A DNA stretch of 37,981 bases from Planctomycetota bacterium (GTDB taxonomy: Bacteria; Planctomycetota; Phycisphaerae; Phycisphaerales; Phycisphaeraceae). A program made the position numbers and the translations under genes. Shown piece by piece: positions 9,124-24,898 of the stretch (position 1 is its first letter; each line of letters begins with the position of its first letter). The DNA is taken from NCBI GenBank assembly GCA_024279865.1, contig JAJRRC010000065.1:1-37981 (forward strand), in the 5' to 3' direction. The notes under the pieces were generated by a model, which was not told where the DNA came from, searched no databases, and saw only the letters and a list, made by a program, of their open reading frames with translations.

Positions 9124-9822
9124 TTAAAAATCTTTCTTAACTGTATACGCTTGCCATGAAATGAAATTCATAGAGCTCACATGGCCATCTGAGAAAAGAT
9201 AATTAATCGCCTCGTTATGTCTCTCCTCGGCTGATATTGGAGGATTGTCCGAATGTCCCCAGTACCATGTATTAAAGTCTGATGCGGAGTCGCCGTCATA
9301 TACCAACGTATCTGTAGAAGGATTTTTTAAATTGCTAAGCCTAGACGGGGGATATATCCAAACATTACTTGTGTTTAAATAGCCCGTATTGTAATTCCAT
9401 AAAATTCCTTGATTAACATAGTCTGTGGCATTCAGTTTTCGCCATGCATGCCCGTAATAATCTGTTGTTGTTTGAGTTGCAAAAACCCCTCTCTCTCGGG
9501 TCAGGTCCGAGGGGCAATCCATCAAGAGCTTGCTCATCCCCACCCCATGAACCGAGCCGGTCAAGGCATCCCAAGAGCCTTGAAAAACCTGTCTAGCAGG
9601 GAGTAAAAGGTCATTGTTAATGTCTGCCCAGATAAAAACAGCTGGGCCAATTTGTCGGATACTGTTGGCGCAGACGATCTGCCGTCCTCTTTCCCTAGCC
9701 GACCCCAAGGCTGGCAAAAGTATTGCGATCAAAAGACTGATTATACTAATCACTACAAGAAGTTCGATTAAAGTAAAACCGGTGATTCCTGAAAAACGGG
9801 TAATTTGCTTGCGTCTCATCAT
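9124..9822 (-). CDS. Prepilin-type secreted protein with H-X9-DG motif
   Basis: This is a type II secretion/type IV pilin-like protein of the kind abundant in Planctomycetota. The N terminus has a short basic leader, then [25 protein letters not shown], with the prepilin peptidase site at Gly-Phe and the conserved Glu+5. It is followed by the [18 protein letters not shown] helix. Near the end, [12 protein letters not shown] matches the H-X9-DG motif of this family. The length of 232 aa is normal. ATG 9822 has AAGGAA 6 bases upstream; the longer frame from 9858 would run into the GntR gene. It is 11 bases downstream of the regulator stop and so probably in the same transcript. Function is unknown; it is presumably exported and membrane-anchored. 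Confidence 0.88.
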
Positions 9823-17494: not shown

Positions 17495-17532
17495 AAAACA
17501 GCCACAGGCCAATCGCTTGTGGCTGTTTTTTT
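17495..17532. terminator. Intrinsic terminator between the phosphofructokinase gene and murQ
   Basis: A 12-bp stem, AAAACAGCCACA (17495-17506) pairing with 17518-17529, has an 11-base loop and a T run to 17532. It sits 60 bases after the phosphofructokinase stop and touches the murQ stop from the other side, so it probably serves both convergent genes. Confidence 0.85.
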
Positions 17533-18445
17533 AACGGGGTGAACCCAGAATGGCGTAGAGCTTTTGGTGGTGCGATTCTAGAAGCTTAAGGGCTTCATCC
17601 ATATTTAAATTTTTCATTGCCATGACCAAAGCAACCTTGACTTTGCCCTGTGTGTCATCGAGCAAGGCCATTGCTTGCGTACGATCCAAATCACATTGGT
17701 GCATCAAAATCCGAGCAGCTCGATCTCGCAACTTGGCGTTGGTGGCTCGCAAGTCCACCATTAAATTGCCCCACACTTTACCCCGCCCCACCATGACGGA
17801 GGTGCTGATCATATTTAACGCTAATTTCGTGGCGGTCCCAGCTTTCATGCGGGTCGAACCGGTCACCACTTCAGGGCCGACGGGCAACGCAATGAGATGA
17901 TCCAACGCACACAACCGACGCGGATCAGGTACGCAACAAATCAAACCCGTCACAGCACCGCAAGATTGAGCATAGGCCAGACCGCCCCACACCCAGGGCG
18001 TGGTTCCGCTGGCAGCAATGCCCACCACCACGTCTGAAGAAGTTAAATTCATGGCCTCGAAAATGTCGCGTGGGCCGCCAGGATCGTCTTCGGTTTTTTC
18101 ACTGCTCACGCGTAACGCCCCGTCTCCGCCGGCAATGATGCCAATCACTTCACCGGGTTCACTGAAAAACGTAGGCGGGCATTCAGACGCATCCAACACC
18201 CCTAGCCGTCCTGACGTGCCAGCACCGAAATAAATCAACCGTCCCCCTGCGTTCATCCCCCCAATCACGTCATCAACAAGTTTGCTCATCGTCCCAATCG
18301 CGTGCCGCACAATCCCTGGAACCGTCGCGTCTTGATCGTTGATGATCGTCAGCACCTGCTCAGTGGACTGGGTATCCATCATTGCTGAGGCAGCCAGACG
18401 CTGCTCGGTTAAGAGATAACCTCGGTCTTGGGAATCATTTGTCAT
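17531..18445 (-). CDS. murQ: N-acetylmuramic acid 6-phosphate etherase
   Basis: This enzyme cleaves the lactyl ether of MurNAc-6-phosphate to give GlcNAc-6-phosphate and D-lactate in cell-wall recycling. It is a SIS-domain protein with the MurQ signatures YFGAGTSGRLGVLDASECPPTF and, further on, GPEVVTGSTRMKAGTATKLALNM, the family signature near the active site. SSEKTEDD carries the catalytic glutamate region. The length of 304 aa is normal. The start overlaps the end of anmK by 11 bases, with GGAGG before the ATG, so the two are translationally coupled. anmK makes its substrate. Confidence 0.97.
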   Translation of the reverse strand: MTNDSQDRGYLLTEQRLAASAMMDTQSTEQVLTIINDQDATVPGIVRHAIGTMSKLVDDVIGGMNAGGRLIYFGAGTSGRLGVLDASECPPTFFSEPGEVIGIIAGGDGALRVSSEKTEDDPGGPRDIFEAMNLTSSDVVVGIAASGTTPWVWGGLAYAQSCGAVTGLICCVPDPRRLCALDHLIALPVGPEVVTGSTRMKAGTATKLALNMISTSVMVGRGKVWGNLMVDLRATNAKLRDRAARILMHQCDLDRTQAMALLDDTQGKVKVALVMAMKNLNMDEALKLLESHHQKLYAILGSPR

Positions 18446-19610
18446 GCTTGGGGCCTCCGACCCAACAACCTGCGACCCCCGGATTCGTCGCTCCTGTAAT
18501 CTGCTCTAACGTGATCGGCACACCGTCTTGACAGAGCCCGCCTAGCACGGCCATGGCCACGGCTTCACGGGCTTGAACCCCGACGCGCCCCCGGGCGCAA
18601 GTTTGTTTACAGCTCTTTTCTAGCGTTACTTCTTGATTAGAAACTTCATCACAGAGAGAAACGTTGCACGTCACATATTTTTTAATGGCAGTGACCAAGG
18701 TCTCGTTCAATGCTCCACCACCTGCGAGTACGACCTCCAGCCCATCCGTCTGTTCAATCCCATCGGCAATCAAACGAGCCACCGAATCGACCACCGAAGC
18801 CGCCGCATCGTGCGGGTTTAATCCCAAGGGCTTAAGCAATTGTTCGACCCATGCTGCATTAAAATCTTCTCGGCCGGTGGTGCGAGGCATCGGCCTTTTG
18901 AAAAACGCTGCTTGGCAAACAAGGTCATAAACTTCCGGATGAACCTGACCCAAAGCCGCCAATTGACCCCCTTCATCAAACGGCAAAGCAAACCGTTTTT
19001 TCACCACCGCGTCAATCATTAAATTGCAGGGGCCCACGTCTTGACCTTGAATATGGCCAATTGCGTGGGGCTCTTTTTCTGCTGGTAAATAAGTTACATT
19101 GCAGATGCCGCCGAGGTTGACGATTTGCCTGGGATGGTTTGCTCTAAAAAGAATCCAGTCTGCTAGTGGCGTGATCGGCGCGCCTTGTCCGCCGGCAATC
19201 AGGTCCGCCTGTCGCAGGTCATGACACACGGGCAAACCCAATTCACGCACCATCGGCCAAGGGTCCAATAGCTGCACGCTGAGCGATTCATCAGGCCCGT
19301 GCCAAATGGTTTGGCCGTGAGCGACGATAAAGTCGACCTTGTCTAAATATTGTAATTTTGCAATGGCCTCTACATGAATTTGTCCCAGGCAGCGAGCGAC
19401 CCGCGCATGGTCAGCCGCGGGGAAAGGCATACCCTTGGCGAGTTCTTGCAAATCACCTGCGAGGGTGCCCAAGGGATGGCTGGCCCATTGGATCAACTGG
19501 GCGGTCATGTTCAACCCATGGCCGACAAGTCGGACCAATGCCACATCTAGGCCATCAAGGCTGGTTCCGGTCATGCATCCGACGACATATCTGGTAGGCT
19601 TGGTATTCAT
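18435..19610 (-). CDS. anmK: Anhydro-N-acetylmuramic acid kinase
   Basis: This enzyme phosphorylates and opens 1,6-anhydro-MurNAc to give MurNAc-6-phosphate, the step before MurQ. The N terminus VVGCMTGTSLDGLDVALVRL contains the ATP-binding GTSLDG (residues 15-20). VAHGQTIWHGPD and NLGGICNVTYLP are further ASKHA-fold motifs, and VVLAGGGALNETL is in the second half. Length is 391 aa. It forms a two-gene operon with murQ and is divergent from the AmpG-like permease, whose start codon is only 26 bases away. Together these three make a muropeptide salvage module. No clear Shine-Dalgarno is visible. Confidence 0.96.
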   Translation of the reverse strand: MNTKPTRYVVGCMTGTSLDGLDVALVRLVGHGLNMTAQLIQWASHPLGTLAGDLQELAKGMPFPAADHARVARCLGQIHVEAIAKLQYLDKVDFIVAHGQTIWHGPDESLSVQLLDPWPMVRELGLPVCHDLRQADLIAGGQGAPITPLADWILFRANHPRQIVNLGGICNVTYLPAEKEPHAIGHIQGQDVGPCNLMIDAVVKKRFALPFDEGGQLAALGQVHPEVYDLVCQAAFFKRPMPRTTGREDFNAAWVEQLLKPLGLNPHDAAASVVDSVARLIADGIEQTDGLEVVLAGGGALNETLVTAIKKYVTCNVSLCDEVSNQEVTLEKSCKQTCARGRVGVQAREAVAMAVLGGLCQDGVPITLEQITGATNPGVAGCWVGGPKHDK

Positions 19611-19636
19611 TGTCTAAGTTCAAGGATGATACTTTG

Positions 19637-20881
19637 ATGCCCCGTTCTCAGCGACCCCACTTGTATGGTAATCGACGCATGGCAGCGTTGGTGGCGTTGG
19701 GGTTTGCATCGGGATTGCCTGGTGCGTGGACGCTGTTGGGGCCACCTTTACAAGCTTGGCTGGGACAGATGCAGGTGGACCTTGCCACGATTGGTTTGTT
19801 TGGCCTTGTTGCGTTGCCGTTTACATTGAATTTTGCATGGGCTCCGTTGATGGATCGTTTTACGTTGCCTTGGATGGCTGATCGTCGCCGGGGTTGGTTG
19901 CAAGTGATTCAGTGGTTACTCCTTTTTGCGATTGCGGGAATGGCGTTGGTTGGACCGACGGAGGTGGGGGACGCGTTGTGGCCGTTGGCGGTTGGGGCGA
20001 TGGTGGTTGCTTTTTTAGCTGCGACGCAGGACGTGGTGGCCGATGCGTATCGTACGGACGTTTTGGAAGACCATGAACTGGGAGCGGGTGCTGCGGTTTT
20101 TGTCAACGGCTACCGCATTGCGATGGCGGTCGGGACCGGCGGCTCACTGATGGCTGCGGGTGTCATCGGCTGGCGATGGACGTATCTTTGCCTGGCGTTA
20201 CTGATGGGCATTGGCTTACTGGGAACGCGTTTGTCGCCCAAGCCTCCCCATGCAGATGAAAAACCCACGAGCTTGGCAGCAGCCTTTACCCAGCCGGTAC
20301 TCGACTTTTTTACAAGGCATGGCAAACGAGGTTTATTGATCCTACTCTTTGCCGTCCTGTTCAAATTGCCTGATGCCACGGCCAGGGTAATGACAACCCC
20401 CCTCTTACAAACCAAACTCGGCCTAGACCTTGCAGAGATCGGCCTGCTCCAAAGCTGGTTAGGTATGGGCGTAACCATGATCGGTGCGATGCTCGGCGGT
20501 ATCGTCATTGCCAAAATGGGATTGATGCGAGCGATGTGGCTGTTGGCGGCATTGCAAATGCTCAGCAATCTGGGATTCTCCGTGCTAGCTGCGGTGGGGC
20601 CCATCAAGTGGGCGGTCGCGACGGTGATTGGTATTGAAGCACTTTGCGGAGGCATGGTGACGGTTGGCTTCATTGCCTTTCTCATGGCCCAATGCAACCG
20701 TCGCTACTCTGCATCTCAGTATGCTCTATTCACGAGTCTCAATGCGCTGACGGGTATTTTGACGGGGGCGTTTACGGGGTATGTGGTTCAGTGGGTTGGC
20801 TTTGAATGGTTCTTCGTTCTGACTGCGTTGGTGGGTTTGCCGGCCGTGGTGGTTTTGGCGTTGCTACACAGGCCTGAATAA
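19637..20881 (+). CDS. ampG: AmpG-like muropeptide permease (MFS)
   Basis: This is a 12-helix major facilitator protein of the AmpG group, which imports GlcNAc-anhydroMurNAc peptides into the cytoplasm. The AmpG N-terminal pattern is clear: ALVALGFASGLPGAW, PPLQAWLGQMQVDLATIGLFGL, LNFAWAPLMDRF and RRRGWLQVIQWLLL. A later DVVADAYRTDVL segment matches the family Asp-rich motif. Its position beside anmK-murQ strongly supports a peptidoglycan-recycling role. ATG 19637 is chosen because AAGGA is 12 bases upstream; a TTG at 19610 would overlap the anmK start. Exact solute specificity is inferred. Beta-lactamase signalling by AmpG is specific to some Proteobacteria and is not implied here. Confidence 0.88.
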   Translation: MPRSQRPHLYGNRRMAALVALGFASGLPGAWTLLGPPLQAWLGQMQVDLATIGLFGLVALPFTLNFAWAPLMDRFTLPWMADRRRGWLQVIQWLLLFAIAGMALVGPTEVGDALWPLAVGAMVVAFLAATQDVVADAYRTDVLEDHELGAGAAVFVNGYRIAMAVGTGGSLMAAGVIGWRWTYLCLALLMGIGLLGTRLSPKPPHADEKPTSLAAAFTQPVLDFFTRHGKRGLLILLFAVLFKLPDATARVMTTPLLQTKLGLDLAEIGLLQSWLGMGVTMIGAMLGGIVIAKMGLMRAMWLLAALQMLSNLGFSVLAAVGPIKWAVATVIGIEALCGGMVTVGFIAFLMAQCNRRYSASQYALFTSLNALTGILTGAFTGYVVQWVGFEWFFVLTALVGLPAVVVLALLHRPE

Positions 20882-20910
20882 AAAAAAAGTCCATCCAACG
20901 GTTTTACCCA

Positions 20911-20939
20911 TTGCATTAAATTCTTTTGGACGTTACAGT
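20911..20939 (+). promoter_or_regulatory. Promoter leading into the cobalamin riboswitch
   Basis: TTGCAT (20911-20916) and TACAGT (20934-20939) are spaced by exactly 17 bases. The expected start (about 20946) falls at the foot of riboswitch stem P1, at 20948. The fit of promoter to aptamer supports both calls. Confidence 0.6.
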
Positions 20940-20947
20940 CTCCATCA

Positions 20948-21191
20948 GTCAATACAGGTTGCTGTTGAATTTTGTGTTCAACAGCTGAAAAGGGAAGTGA
21001 GGTGCGCAGCTTTGATTTATTTGAAGCTGCAAGACCTCCGCGGACGCGCCGCCGTAAAGGGTGAACCCTCTGGAAACAGAGCGTTAACCAAAACTGGGCG
21101 ACATGCCACTGACCTGATCCGCAATGGATCGCCGTCGGGAAGGCTTGTCCAGTTTTGAAACACCTAAGTCGGAAGACCTGCCAGTAATGAC
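20948..21191 (+). ncRNA. Cobalamin (B12) riboswitch aptamer
   Basis: The conserved core of the cobalamin riboswitch is visible in order. A 9-bp hairpin at 20961-20985 is followed by GAAAAGGGAAGTGAGGTG (20987-21004). Then come a peripheral hairpin, AAGACCTCCGCGG, GCCACTG (21105-21111) and CGGGAAGGC (21136-21144). The near-invariant B12 box AAGTCGGAAGACCTGCC is at 21166-21182. The closing stem P1 pairs 20948-20958 with 21181-21191 (9 of 11 pairs). The element is on the plus strand, 166 bases before the next start codon. There is no terminator-like U tract after it, so regulation is probably at translation. The downstream gene is a prepilin-type secreted protein rather than a usual B12 gene. Confidence 0.93.
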
Positions 21192-21315
21192 CGAGTGTTG
21201 GGTCCCTCGCGATCGGGACGACTCGGGTGGGCTTGATCTGAACAGCCCGGCAGCATTGCCTCCCCCCCCGTTCTTAATTCGATTGCGTTGCATGGCCCGT
21301 TGTACAGTCTGTTAA

Positions 21316-21357
21316 CCGGGCAATGTCCTGCGCGAATCAGGACAAGGAGTTTTCCCC
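21316..21357 (+). promoter_or_regulatory. Probable expression platform: hairpin abutting the ribosome site
   Basis: A perfect 6-bp stem GTCCTG/CAGGAC (21327-21332 and 21340-21345) ends directly before AAGGAG (21346-21351), the ribosome binding site of the gene at 21358. Refolding here could expose or hide the site. Upstream, 21198-21230 holds a second stem with GTCCC/GGGAC. The link to the aptamer is inferred. Confidence 0.4.
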
Positions 21358-22164
21358 ATGTGCCATCGCACCCACGTTTCGAAACCGTCCCACGCCTTCA
21401 CCCTGATCGAATTACTGGTCGTAATCTCGATTATCTCGCTACTAATCGGCATTTTACTGCCTGCCTTGGCCTCGGCAAGAGTCGCAGCCCAGACCTCGGT
21501 CTGTGCGTCAAACATCAGGCAACTGGCCATCGCCAATACCACCTACACCGCTGATTACAAAAACTTTTACTGCCTGGGATCTGAAGACCTTTACACCACC
21601 AATCTCACACGCTGGCATGGCAAACGCTTAACGAATTCTAGCCCTTACGATGCGGCCAAAGGCCCTTTGAGTCCCTTCTTTAATGCCGCCCAAGTCAAAC
21701 ATTGCCCCACCTTTCTTAACCTTATCGAAGCGGGCAGCGGCTACGAAGAAGGCTCCGGCGGCTATGGCTACAACTCCACCTACATCGGAGCACGTCAAGA
21801 CCTGTTCCCCCTGTTCACCGCAGCAGCCTACACACGCAGCGCCCGAGTGGATGACCCCAAAAACCCCACCGAAACGATCATGTTCGCCGATGCGGCAGGG
21901 TTGACCTTCCCCGATTCCAAACTCATCGAAGAATCGGCACTGTACTCCCCCTATGGAATCTCCACCGCGGGTGTGGGTTCTGCAAACCAGCCCTCCATGC
22001 ACTTTCGCCATAACATGGCCACCAATGCCGCCATGCTTGATGGCCATGTCGAAACCCAAGCCATGACCTTTAGCCAGAACCCTTATTTTTCACTCACGCC
22101 TGAATTGCAAAAACTTCTCGGCTGGTTCGGCCCACAGAGCAACGAACTATTCGACCTGGAATAA
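21358..22164 (+). CDS. Prepilin-type secreted protein under a cobalamin riboswitch
   Basis: The 268-residue product starts with a short leader, then the prepilin signal [25 protein letters not shown] with the conserved Glu+5. It continues with an [19 protein letters not shown] helix and a globular part rich in Tyr, Gly and Ser. It ends with [12 protein letters not shown], the H-X9-DG motif, like the protein at 9124-9822. A strong AAGGAG lies 6 bases before the ATG. The cobalamin riboswitch upstream predicts that its synthesis falls when B12 is plentiful. Possible roles are capture or transport of corrinoids at the cell surface, or a B12-independent function that substitutes for a B12-dependent one. 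Neither is shown by the sequence. A terminator follows directly, so it is transcribed alone. Confidence 0.88.
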
Positions 22165-22177
22165 AGCTATACACCGG

Positions 22178-22237
22178 TACCAGCGATGAAAATAGGCAAT
22201 TCCCCCGCCAACCTTTCATCGCTGGTATCTTTTTTTA
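22178..22237 (+). terminator. Intrinsic terminator of the riboswitch-controlled gene
   Basis: A perfect 14-bp stem, TACCAGCGATGAAA (22178-22191) and 22214-22227, is followed by TCTTTTTTT. It lies 13 bases after the stop codon and separates this gene from trxB. Confidence 0.9.
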
Positions 22238-22295
22238 TTCCTCTCCAGCAGAGTCCTCTCTGACGTGCCTGAGATAATTGTTACAATCTCAAGCC

Positions 22296-23285
22296 ATGAA
22301 TGAACAAAATACCCCTATCGAAAAAATTGTGATCATTGGCTCTGGACCTGCTGGCTGGACCGCTGCAATCTACGCGGCCCGCGCCAACCTCAGCCCAGTG
22401 GTCTATGAAGGCATCCCCAAACAGAACCCCAGTCTGGTCCTGCCCGGCGGACAACTCATGCTCACCACCGAAGTGGACAACTTTCCAGGCTATCCCGAAG
22501 GTGTTGAAGGCCCACAACTCATGAACGACATCAAAAAGCAGGCGCTGCGATTCGAAACACGAATCAAGTCCCTCGATGTCGATACATGTGACTTCACCCA
22601 ACGCCCTTTCACACTGAACGTGTCCGATGGCTCGGTCGTCAAAGCCCATTGTGTCATCATCGCCACCGGTGCGACGGCCAACTGGATCGGCCTGGACAAT
22701 GAAATGCGACTGGCCCGTTCCGGCGGCGGCGTCTCGGCGTGTGCTGTCTGCGATGGCGCGTTGCCTGTCTTTCGGGATCAACCGCTGGCCATCGTCGGCG
22801 GCGGCGACAGTGCCATGGAAGAAGCAAGCTATCTCACCAAGTTTGCATCCAAGGTCTATGTGATCCATCGTCGCGATGAATTCCGCGCGTCAAAGATCAT
22901 GGCCCAACGTGTGCTGGACAATCCCAAGTGTGTCCCCGTCTGGAACAGTGTCGTCACCGATGTCCTAGGCGAAGATAAAATCTCTGGCCTGCAACTCAAA
23001 GACACCAAAACAGGCGAAGAGTCTACGCTGGACGTCAAAGGCTTGTTCGTCGCCATCGGCCACACCCCTGCGACCAAGTTTCTTGATCCAGAACAAATCC
23101 TGCTTGATGACAAGGGTTATATCCAAATGCCCGTGCCACATCAGAGCATGACCAGCATCGAAGGTGTTTTTGTCGCAGGCGACTGTGCCGACTCACTGTA
23201 CCGCCAAGCCATCACGGCCGCGGGCATGGGATGCAAATCTGCCATTGACGCTGAACGCTGGCTTGCCGACCAAGGGATTCATTAG
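22296..23285 (+). CDS. trxB: Thioredoxin reductase
   Basis: This FAD/NADPH enzyme reduces thioredoxin. The N-terminal FAD motif is IIGSGPAGWTAAIYAARANL (GSGPAG, residues 15-20). The redox centre is CAVC (149-152), within SACAVCDG where CATC is usual. The NADPH motif is AIVGGGDSAMEEASYLTKF with the following HRRDEFRASK. The C-terminal FAD motif is VFVAGDCADSLYRQAITAAGMGC. The length is 329 aa. ATG 22296 is preferred over the TTG at 22278. Close before it, CTGACG and TACAAT (22260-22265 and 22282-22287, 16-base spacer) could be a promoter, which would give an almost leaderless message. Confidence 0.96.
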   Translation: MNEQNTPIEKIVIIGSGPAGWTAAIYAARANLSPVVYEGIPKQNPSLVLPGGQLMLTTEVDNFPGYPEGVEGPQLMNDIKKQALRFETRIKSLDVDTCDFTQRPFTLNVSDGSVVKAHCVIIATGATANWIGLDNEMRLARSGGGVSACAVCDGALPVFRDQPLAIVGGGDSAMEEASYLTKFASKVYVIHRRDEFRASKIMAQRVLDNPKCVPVWNSVVTDVLGEDKISGLQLKDTKTGEESTLDVKGLFVAIGHTPATKFLDPEQILLDDKGYIQMPVPHQSMTSIEGVFVAGDCADSLYRQAITAAGMGCKSAIDAERWLADQGIH

Positions 23286-23324: not shown

Positions 23325-24497
23325 TCATAGATCGAACAATGCCAACTGGTTATGGCTTTGGTCGTTTTCGTTGCATTGACCTGATTTAGAAAACCGCTCT
23401 AAAACAGGGACGTTTTCGAAAATTGACACACTGAAACCCTGTAAAATTGTGTAGAGGCTTTGACCGAGTTTTAACTCTTTTTTGAGAATTGCCACAAGCA
23501 AATAAGTCGAGATCGCGGCCCATATCTGCGTTTTGACGGCATTGGGAGTTGTCCCATAGAACACCTTGATGCGCAGGTGTTGTTTGATCCATTTGAAAAA
23601 CAATTCGATCTGCCATCGAGCTTTGTAAAGCAATGCGATTGTAAGCGGTGGGAGCTCGAAGTTGTTGGTTAAGAATACGAGTTTCTTTTTGGTCTCCGGG
23701 TCGACGAATCAAATTCTCCGTAATGGTTCTGGATAATTTTTTGAAGGGTAAAATGATGTCAGAACAATGGTTTGATCGCACTGAATGCCGGTATCTTTGT
23801 CGACAGGTTTTGAATAACGTCGTCTGAACTTCTGGTTGCTTCTGGCTCGTGTAATAAAGAAAGACCGGGCTTGATGAATGGTATAAAGGCGTTTGAAATC
23901 GAGGTAGCCACGGTCCATGATATAAAATGCGCCAGCCTCCAGAACCAGAAGGTCCAAGACATTGGCATCGTGCAGTTTTCCGTCTGAGATATGAATAAAC
24001 GTCGGGATATTGCCGCGCAAATTCATCAAGGTATGCAACTTGATAGCAGCTTTTTGCTTCCTAAATTTCGCCCATGGGAAAATGGACCAGCACAAATCGA
24101 TCGTACTTGAATCCAGTGCATAGAGCGTTGCATTTTCTAATTCCTTGCCGAAATCCTCGTCTGCATACAATCGACAAGCTCGATTTGTCTGCAAGTTCGA
24201 AAGGTCTACAAAGATGCGCCAGTCGCGTATCTCGTTTGCTTTGGCAAGCGTACTTCGCCCAACGCAATGACGAATACCCATGTGGTAGAGTTTGGGCTCC
24301 ATCGCTCGTAAGCATGACTCGATATCGCGTAAACTTTCGCGATAAGTTAACTGGGCAAAGGCCATGACTCGAAATTGGTCCAGACATGAAAAGGCTTTGA
24401 TCCGCGAGTTGCCTTGGTAACGCTTGACGCAAGTATAAAATTGGCGAAGAGGGGAAAAGTCCATGATCTGTGCAAAGACTGGGCGTCCAGAGTACAT
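23325..24497 (-). pseudogene. IS4-family transposase interrupted by one in-frame TGA
   Basis: This is a DDE transposase of the IS4 family. The N-terminal part reads GRPVFAQIMDFSPLRQF and FSCLDQFRVMAFAQLTYRES. The catalytic Asp regions are TLYALDSSTIDLC and AFYIMDRGYLDF. The C-terminal catalytic block YKARWQIELFFKWIKQHLRIK has the conserved Tyr-Arg-Glu-Lys pattern. At 23711-23709 a TGA interrupts the frame between EPLRRI and FVDPETKKKLVFLTNNF. Both halves are in the same frame and otherwise intact. Relatives have Arg or a similar residue here, so a single CGA to TGA change is enough. Start ATG 24497 matches the family; the frame extends to 24572 but that part lies in the palindrome. About 390 codons in all. 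Confidence 0.9.
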
Positions 24498-24499
24498 CG

Positions 24500-24635
24500 G
24501 GAGATATAACCGAAAGCTGTGGATGACGAATTGAAAAAGGCGGCGTACCTTGGGTGTATTGATGCACCCCAAACTTTTTACACAAAGGAGTACGCCACCA
24601 TGAAAGAGATTCCCACAGCTTTCGGTTATATCTCC
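24500..24635. repeat. Nested palindrome with 23-bp perfect inverted repeats
   Basis: A 23-base sequence (24500-24522, starting GGAGATATAACCG) recurs as its exact reverse complement at 24613-24635. Inside it lie an imperfect pair (GGCGGCGTAC at 24540-24549 against GTACGCCACC at 24590-24599) and a central hairpin, GGGTG and CACCC (24553-24568). The order suggests two diverged inverted copies of one 50-base unit facing each other. The left copy ends at the transposase start and the right copy interrupts the Doc fragment. Confidence 0.8.
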
Positions 24636-24802
24636 TGGCCGGTTGCCACTGAAAGAGTCAGGTCGTAGAGGCTTCTGGATGGTGCATAAATTTCAATACC
24701 ATTAAGGCCAAGAAAGACCAATGCTGCAACGGTGTCCGCTCGCTTATTACCATCGACAAAAGGATGGTTTTGAACGATATGAAAAAACCCTTCCAAGCAC
24801 AT
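24626..24802 (-). pseudogene. doc: Doc (death-on-curing) toxin fragment
   Basis: A 58-codon frame reads HIVQNHPFVDGNKRADTV, then AALVFLGLNGIEIYAPS and LYDLTLSVATGQ. HPFVDGNKR is the Fic/Doc active-site motif (HxFxDGNKR). Doc proteins phosphorylate EF-Tu and normally have about 125 residues; the first 60 or so and the last stretch are missing. At the C-terminal end the frame stops inside the right copy of the inverted repeat. At the N-terminal end homology begins exactly where the tRNA-Val terminator ends, and the ATG lies in the terminator loop. No antitoxin is seen. It is a remnant and probably not functional. Confidence 0.8.
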
Positions 24803-24821
24803 GACTTGAAAGGGTTTTTTT
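24782..24821 (-). terminator. Terminator of the tRNA-Val gene
   Basis: Reading leftward, a near-perfect 16-bp stem (24820-24805 with 24797-24782, one mismatch) encloses a 7-base loop and ends in a T6 run. It starts 4 bases after the tRNA and overlaps the beginning of the Doc remnant. Confidence 0.8.
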
Positions 24822-24824
24822 AAG

Positions 24825-24898
24825 TGGGCGATACAGGACTCGAACCTGTGACCTCACGCGTGTGAGGCGTGCGCTCTAGCCAACTGAGCTAATCGCCC
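24825..24898 (-). tRNA. tRNA-Val (anticodon CAC)
   Basis: The cloverleaf folds fully: acceptor GGGCGAT/ATCGCCC, D stem GCTC/GAGC, anticodon stem CACGC/GCGTG with loop CTCACAC, and T stem ACAGG/CCTGT with loop TTCGAGT. The anticodon CAC (24864-24862) reads GUG. It is 74 nt with discriminator A; CCA is not encoded. The 3' side abuts a Doc fragment and an IS, a common integration site arrangement. Confidence 0.97.

Follow-up and report, generated by a model that had tools for sequence, protein, structure and literature searches.

The closest described relatives of the locus analysed here are the BtuG, BtuH and BtuJ capture proteins of Bacteroides, whose loci carry an upstream cobalamin riboswitch (excerpts of PMC8941943, PMC10404256 and PMC12751083). 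In the excerpted text of these and related papers, Bacteroides BtuH2 binds B12 (PMC8941943), BtuG1 has a BtuH domain as its C-terminal part (PMC10404256), and DUF4465 proteins are the B12-binding BtuJ proteins (PMC13398666, PMC12751083), one of which, from the Phycisphaerae species Mucisphaera calidilacus, binds B12 (PMC13398666). The BtuB-TonB-BtuFCD route is a second point of comparison. As for pilins, the planctomycete H-X9-DG proteins (DUF1559, PF07596, SBP_bac_10) are prepilin-like and have been termed a family of solute-binding proteins (PMC2754498, in excerpt), and pili-like fibres of planctomycetes bind dextran (PMC5394234, in excerpt). Taken together, the dextran-binding fibres and the solute-binding label make uptake by a pilus plausible, not proven.

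The locus lies in a window of 37,981 nucleotides (the whole stretch of DNA that was analysed) from a planctomycete draft genome. Its likeness to the Bacteroides loci consists in the cobalamin riboswitch upstream and in the BtuH-domain and DUF4465/BtuJ homologues found in relatives. It differs in that the planctomycete cassettes bear PEP-CTERM tails rather than the lipoprotein signals of the Bacteroides excerpts and include a dedicated pseudopilin; a BtuB-like gene belongs to the locus in only one genus, and the window is without any Btu-type binder. With the BtuB-TonB-BtuFCD route it shares the upstream riboswitch, a BtuC-like permease in the window genome and, beside the pilin of one genus (g33), a BtuB-like receptor with ExbB-, ExbD- and TonB-like genes, whereas no TonB-dependent receptor was found in the window genome. 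The N-methylation motif, the H-X9-DG motif and the pilin fold are common to the window protein and other H-X9-DG/DUF1559 proteins, but B12-riboswitch control, a shared WHGxR motif and a GWFGPxxNxLFDL-like end set the riboswitch-linked group apart. The dextran-binding fibres come from the same phylum and likewise involve a fibre in uptake; there the substrate is a macromolecule and no pilin gene is named in the text searched of PMC5394234, whereas here a vitamin would be concerned and the pilin gene is defined.

Within the open-access literature, our scope (subscription papers and preprints fell outside it), we found no paper that connects cobalamin riboswitches to pilins of planctomycetes or to PEP-CTERM proteins. 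One report, in the part seen, places PEP-CTERM genes with c-di-GMP riboswitches and cobalamin switches with synthesis genes, and is unrelated (PMC12530212). Switch, binders and pilin fold each belong to a known kind; what appears to be new is the combination, the PEP-CTERM form of BtuH and the pilin as core.

The riboswitch and the gene behind it

An earlier note on this DNA had read a full cobalamin aptamer with a B12 box ahead of the gene, and the covariance search with the cobalamin model bears this out. RF00174 matches positions 20939-21199 on the + strand at 71.3 bits against a gathering score of 31.5 (E 8e-16), with the whole model covered (positions 1-189, all 189). This is the single RF00174 match in the window's own genome (a draft, 95.7% complete); the score and the sole match rule out a chance hit or a wrongly assigned aptamer. 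The B12 box region (21105-21144, +), read from the sequence and lying within the RF00174 alignment, consists of GCCACTG at 21105-21111 and GGGAAGGC at 21137-21144. From the aptamer to the start codon runs a leader (21200-21357, +) with a hairpin adjoining an AAGGAG at 21344-21349, 8 nt ahead of the pilin ATG at 21358. Folding against shuffles gave no expression platform, as three folds within 21200-21375 were not better than the shuffles (z 0.21 to -0.77). The promoter that had been placed ahead of the aptamer was not confirmed either: a sigma-70 scan of 20870-22320 listed no + strand site upstream of it, though in a planctomycete such a negative counts for little.

The gene itself (21358-22164, +) encodes a protein of 268 aa that contains the H-X9-DG motif and an N-methylation motif found above cut-off by both PF07963 (30 versus 21.2 bits, E 3.4e-7) and TIGR02532 (23.8 versus 16.3 bits), in agreement with the earlier description of an H-X9-DG prepilin-type protein. 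Its predicted structure (mean pLDDT 80) has a long N-terminal helix (16-66) followed by strands forming a beta domain. The best PDB match of the model is PilA4 of T. thermophilus (6xxd; rmsd 3.1, 121 aligned), with a Z of 5.7 that, being under 8, is only moderate. Judged by the model, then, the protein looks like a pseudopilin. The fold comparison listed type IV pilins only, at modest Z, and no B12-binding fold was among the matches, which does not exclude one; we know of no B12-binding motif in the protein. The gathering score of PF07596 is not reached (14.7 versus 23.3 bits, E 0.031), and that model matches 16 of 22 aligned riboswitch-linked pilins at E 1 or better. These aligned pilins share the WHGxR motif and the C-terminal GWFGPxxNxLFDL-like end, which occur in none of 25 other pilins of the window genome; the alignment (A1) comprises 22 of the 42 cassette pilins, selected by their GWFGP-type end.

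Behind the pilin gene, a terminator-like hairpin (22176-22229, +) with a 16-pair outer stem followed by seven T folds at -29.3 kcal/mol (z -7.5, none of 200 shuffles as good), so that the proposed terminator is upheld; a pattern scanner did not report it, probably owing to its loop limit of 8. The next gene is a thioredoxin reductase gene (trxB; 22278-23285, +; TIGR01292 above cut-off), a neighbour outside the unit here, and the gene upstream of the aptamer encodes an AmpG-type transporter; neither is a B12 gene. Elsewhere in the window we observed a peptidoglycan-recycling cluster of adjoining MurQ, AnmK and AmpG-type genes (17531-20881), another prepilin motif, this one on the minus strand (9715-9780), and an IS4-family transposase gene (23709-24898; a 287-aa frame against a 332-position model) adjoining a tRNA-Val(cac) gene.

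The window genome (G000) holds 52 N-methyl pilin matches in 3.42 Mb, so pilins as such are common and it is the riboswitch that sets the window pilin apart. Loci could be resolved for 28 of 30 pilins, and the window locus alone has a B12 box. None of the 28, the window locus included, has a PEP-CTERM pattern upstream (~1.5 kb). This count, together with the 20 control pilins described below, rules out a generic layout in which pilins sit beside PEP-CTERM genes. The same genome encodes MetH (above cut-off), a corrinoid-protein-like gene and a permease with BtuC as its best models (both below cut-off), and two exosortases along with PEP-CTERM tails. PF00593 gave 0 matches to TonB-dependent receptors in this 95.7% complete draft, a search that may miss divergent receptors. 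A profile search did not find DUF4465 there. A BtuH-like domain is absent from the window and was not found in the genome, where the A3 search matched PEP-CTERM tails only. The binders may thus be missing here, the pilin may work alone, or the draft may be incomplete.

Conservation of the switch-pilin pair

The aptamer is kept upstream of related pilins. RF00174 matches 45 of the 51 genomes of the GTDB family (54 matches), and a same-strand pilin lies within 5.5 kb downstream of 43 of the 54, all of which were examined on that side; 41 of these pairs were called by pattern, and two loci were added to them, L056 separately and L087 by reading. The pilin density of the window genome would give ~0.04 same-strand pilins per 5.5 kb, or about 2 in 54, by chance. 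Among the 11 switches without a pilin, four (L080, L084, L086, L088) run off the contig. Most other family switches head B12-related genes, which we count in favour of our preferred reading: four precede TonB-dependent receptors (the second switch of L042, L070 and L071; L082), three of them with BtuB models as the best match, below cut-off; one (L046, genome G010) heads a CobO gene with BtuFDC-like genes; and one (L051, genome G003) heads a class-I-type ribonucleotide reductase alpha gene, above cut-off. A further switch (L061) heads a PEP-CTERM gene without a pilin. All such counts refer to related genomes rather than independent events, and the pilin and PEP-CTERM assignments are pattern-based, not curated gene calls. 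Two near-complete family genomes (G042, G045) have no RF00174 match though they have many pilin matches.

At the level of the class, RF00174 is present in 139 of 150 genomes. In 40 class regions outside the family, picked by hand for spread over families, a pilin lies downstream of 28 switches and is absent in 12, two of these with only ~1.2 kb of sequence; the 12 weigh against our reading. Three genomes contain divergent cobalamin riboswitch pairs on opposite strands, ~30-100 bases apart (G159:C54, G075:C44, G169:C40). A strong homologue of the window pilin was found in 11 of 24 order-level genomes, and RF00174 stands upstream in all nine of the 11 that were fetched. The Rfam run on named records covered nine of 80, the best eight (L106-L113) and L123. 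The pair was found in six of the best eight, namely L106 and L113 (Phycisphaerales, Phycisphaerae), L107 (Chthoniobacteraceae), L108 (Spartobacteria), L110 (Planctomycetaceae) and L111 (Hydrogenedentota), and also in the Armatimonadetes record L123, which had been spotted by its B12 box. The pair thus occurs in a few named records of other classes and phyla as well. RF00174 was not found upstream of the pilin in L109 and L112; L109 is a clade-A pilin without a detectable riboswitch, even in a low-threshold Rfam scan, and counts against our reading.

Because a control drawn from the window genome alone is weak, we added 20 pilins without a switch, taken from weaker pilin matches in relatives. 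Over ~3 kb upstream (1.1 kb for L284), none of the 20 showed RF00174, a B12 box or a PEP-CTERM pattern. The control L284 (genome G015) has a BtuH-like frame upstream and is perhaps a second cassette; only ~1.1 kb of contig precedes the pilin motif there, too little to show whether a switch is present.

We placed 109 pilins, of which 57 are riboswitch-linked, in a quick tree. The linkage label requires six changes on it, compared with 36.5 on average over 500 shuffles. The tree leaves out non_G000_L215 (for its length), G072 (not extracted), L087, the class-sample pilins and any own-genome pilins not found or not over 150 aa (29 of the 51 other matches in G000 had loci). Clade A, which includes the window protein, has 37 rows, 36 linked and one unlinked (SH-aLRT 98); clade B has 14 linked rows (SH-aLRT 96), and clade C has five (SH-aLRT 99). 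With these three clades and the separate rows L123 and G021, and with many weak inner branches, a single origin of all riboswitch-linked pilins is not supported. Several pilin lineages seem to have been placed under a switch of this kind, a pattern that speaks for function over mere descent.

Partner genes and TonB receptors

The earlier supposition that the switch controls one gene is true of the window genome but not of most relatives: in 29 of 41 family pilin stretches, the first gene after the switch is a PEP-CTERM (exosortase-type) gene, recognised by its pattern, and the pilin follows. Many of these partners fall into two families. A profile of the first (A6, built from 40 of the 75 retained stretches) aligns over the full length of the BtuH domain in Bacteroides BtuG1 (8blw_B 391-659) at E 2.7e-21, the next match being at 0.63, and a smaller profile of the same family reaches the BtuH domain at E 5.8e-5. 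By sequence, then, these PEP-CTERM partners would belong to the BtuH family, for whose Bacteroides member BtuH2 corrinoid binding has been shown. We found no fitting Pfam model for them (one stray repeat match among 40 sequences), and their predicted structures (three sequences, mean pLDDT 32) were not used. In 24 of 42 family cassettes, and in 22 of 28 from the class sample, the switch and the pilin have a BtuH-like gene between them. These counts used a model iterated on those same loci, which the PDB match checks independently. No BtuH-like gene was recognised in the other 18 of the 42 family cassettes, and this counts against our reading.

The second family is DUF4465 (PF14717), found in eight of the 51 family genomes. 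All eight genes sit by their coordinates in switch-pilin cassettes, seven with a pilin within ~1.1 kb after them and one (G014) at a contig end. A third partner type is beta-propeller-like, with designed propellers as its best PDB matches (E 1.4e-8); a kinship with BtuG is only suggestive. Two long open frames may combine these parts: in Hydrogenedentota (L111, 4781-7861), a BtuH-like secreted domain and a clade-A pilin share one 1026-codon frame, a possible fusion, and in genome G037 (L052, 3201-5357), BtuH-like and DUF4465 domains share one, a possible two-domain binder.

The pilin is the first gene after the switch in the window, at both loci of G010, in G047, G048 and G050, in L238 and in the Armatimonadetes record L123. 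Such an arrangement points to a cassette built around the pilin, with the binders accessory, though draft genomes could hide partners.

In three genomes of one genus (G047, G048 and G050 of g33), the pilin stands behind one switch and a BtuB-like receptor operon behind another. For the receptor the best match is the BtuB model TIGR01779, at E 4e-84 to 1e-86 and short of the curated cut-off. ExbB-, ExbD- and TonB-like genes follow it; in G050, where they were tested, these fall below cut-off except for the TonB domain. A trxB gene comes after this operon. TonB receptor matches occur in 21 of the 51 family genomes; of the 40 with a switch-pilin pair, 23 have no such match and 17 have one or more (in G002 below cut-off), so the pilin is not, in general, a simple replacement of BtuB.

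A proposed corrinoid-capture cassette and its alternatives

At a probability of roughly 0.7, we favour the reading that the locus belongs to a widespread, B12-repressed corrinoid-capture cassette with a dedicated pseudopilin, and that the window holds a form reduced to the pilin. A role in B12 acquisition is well supported by context, that is, by the conservation of aptamer and pilin together, by the BtuH and DUF4465/BtuJ homologues alongside, and by the BtuB-like operon in one genus. The same evidence favours the earlier idea of corrinoid capture or import by an undescribed envelope system up to the point of the pilin itself, whose binding of corrinoid we infer. Under the favoured reading, low intracellular cobalamin would let the riboswitch permit expression. 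In most relatives the switch would then drive PEP-CTERM secreted proteins, many of them BtuH or DUF4465/BtuJ proteins, together with the dedicated H-X9-DG pseudopilin. The surface binders would capture corrinoid, and the pseudopilin would form or join a pseudopilus or pilus in the envelope, by which the captured corrinoid is carried, displayed or handed on. Corrinoid would finally pass inward to a BtuC-type inner-membrane permease, such as the BtuC-like protein of the window genome, in cells where no TonB receptor was found. What the computations establish is the switch, the pilin, the conserved linkage of the two, the partners' homology to B12 binders and the absence of a detected TonB receptor; repression by B12, assembly into a pilus and contact between pilin and corrinoid are deductions from these.

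A wider proposal is possible, and we hold it tentatively. Planctomycetes and other bacteria without TonB-dependent receptors would move corrinoids across the outer envelope by means of a dedicated pseudopilin under riboswitch control. Exosortase-anchored binders of the BtuH/BtuJ type would load it, or it would act alone, as in the window genome. By extension, the H-X9-DG pilins, which number in the dozens in a planctomycete genome, would serve uptake with specificity for particular substrates, and the present pilin would be the first whose substrate is known.

It is also conceivable, if unlikely, that the pilin is a mere display or secretion scaffold for PEP-CTERM B12 binders, never touching corrinoid itself, and a leftover in the window genome, its partners lost or elsewhere. 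The ordinary pilin fold, the 29 of 41 family stretches with the pilin downstream of a PEP-CTERM gene, and the two exosortases and PEP-CTERM tails of the window genome would all fit a scaffold. Yet the pilin is kept without a preceding partner in the window and at the other loci where it comes first behind the switch (two in G010, then G047, G048, G050, L238 and L123), and a PEP-CTERM gene is not a general companion of pilins, being upstream of 0 of 20 control pilins and 0 of 27 other resolved pilins of the window genome. Pilins often serve attachment, and B12 might instead be a signal by which the switch tunes an adhesion or motility pilus under scarcity, for example for attachment to B12-producing neighbours, with no uptake by the pilin. 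Nothing sequence-based tells such a signal from uptake; the recurring partners from B12-binding families and the BtuB-like operon in one genus nonetheless favour acquisition, and we consider the signal improbable. Least credible of all is a switch that exists mainly for trxB, with the pilin incidental. A trxB homologue does start within 7 kb downstream of the switch in 15 of 41 loci, the window included, but the strong terminator-like hairpin separates pilin and trxB in the window, and at the other 26 of the 41 the examined stretch, which in some cases ends with the contig, contains no trxB.

Under the favoured reading of a corrinoid-capture cassette, one pilin clade has its likely substrate marked by the riboswitch. 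This bears on the route of B12 into planctomycetes that lack a recognisable BtuB and on the role of their dozens of H-X9-DG pilins. If the reading is true, the BtuH/BtuJ capture proteins of Bacteroides would extend to an exosortase-type form in other phyla, and vitamin scavenging would be joined with pili, a link absent from the open-access papers covered.
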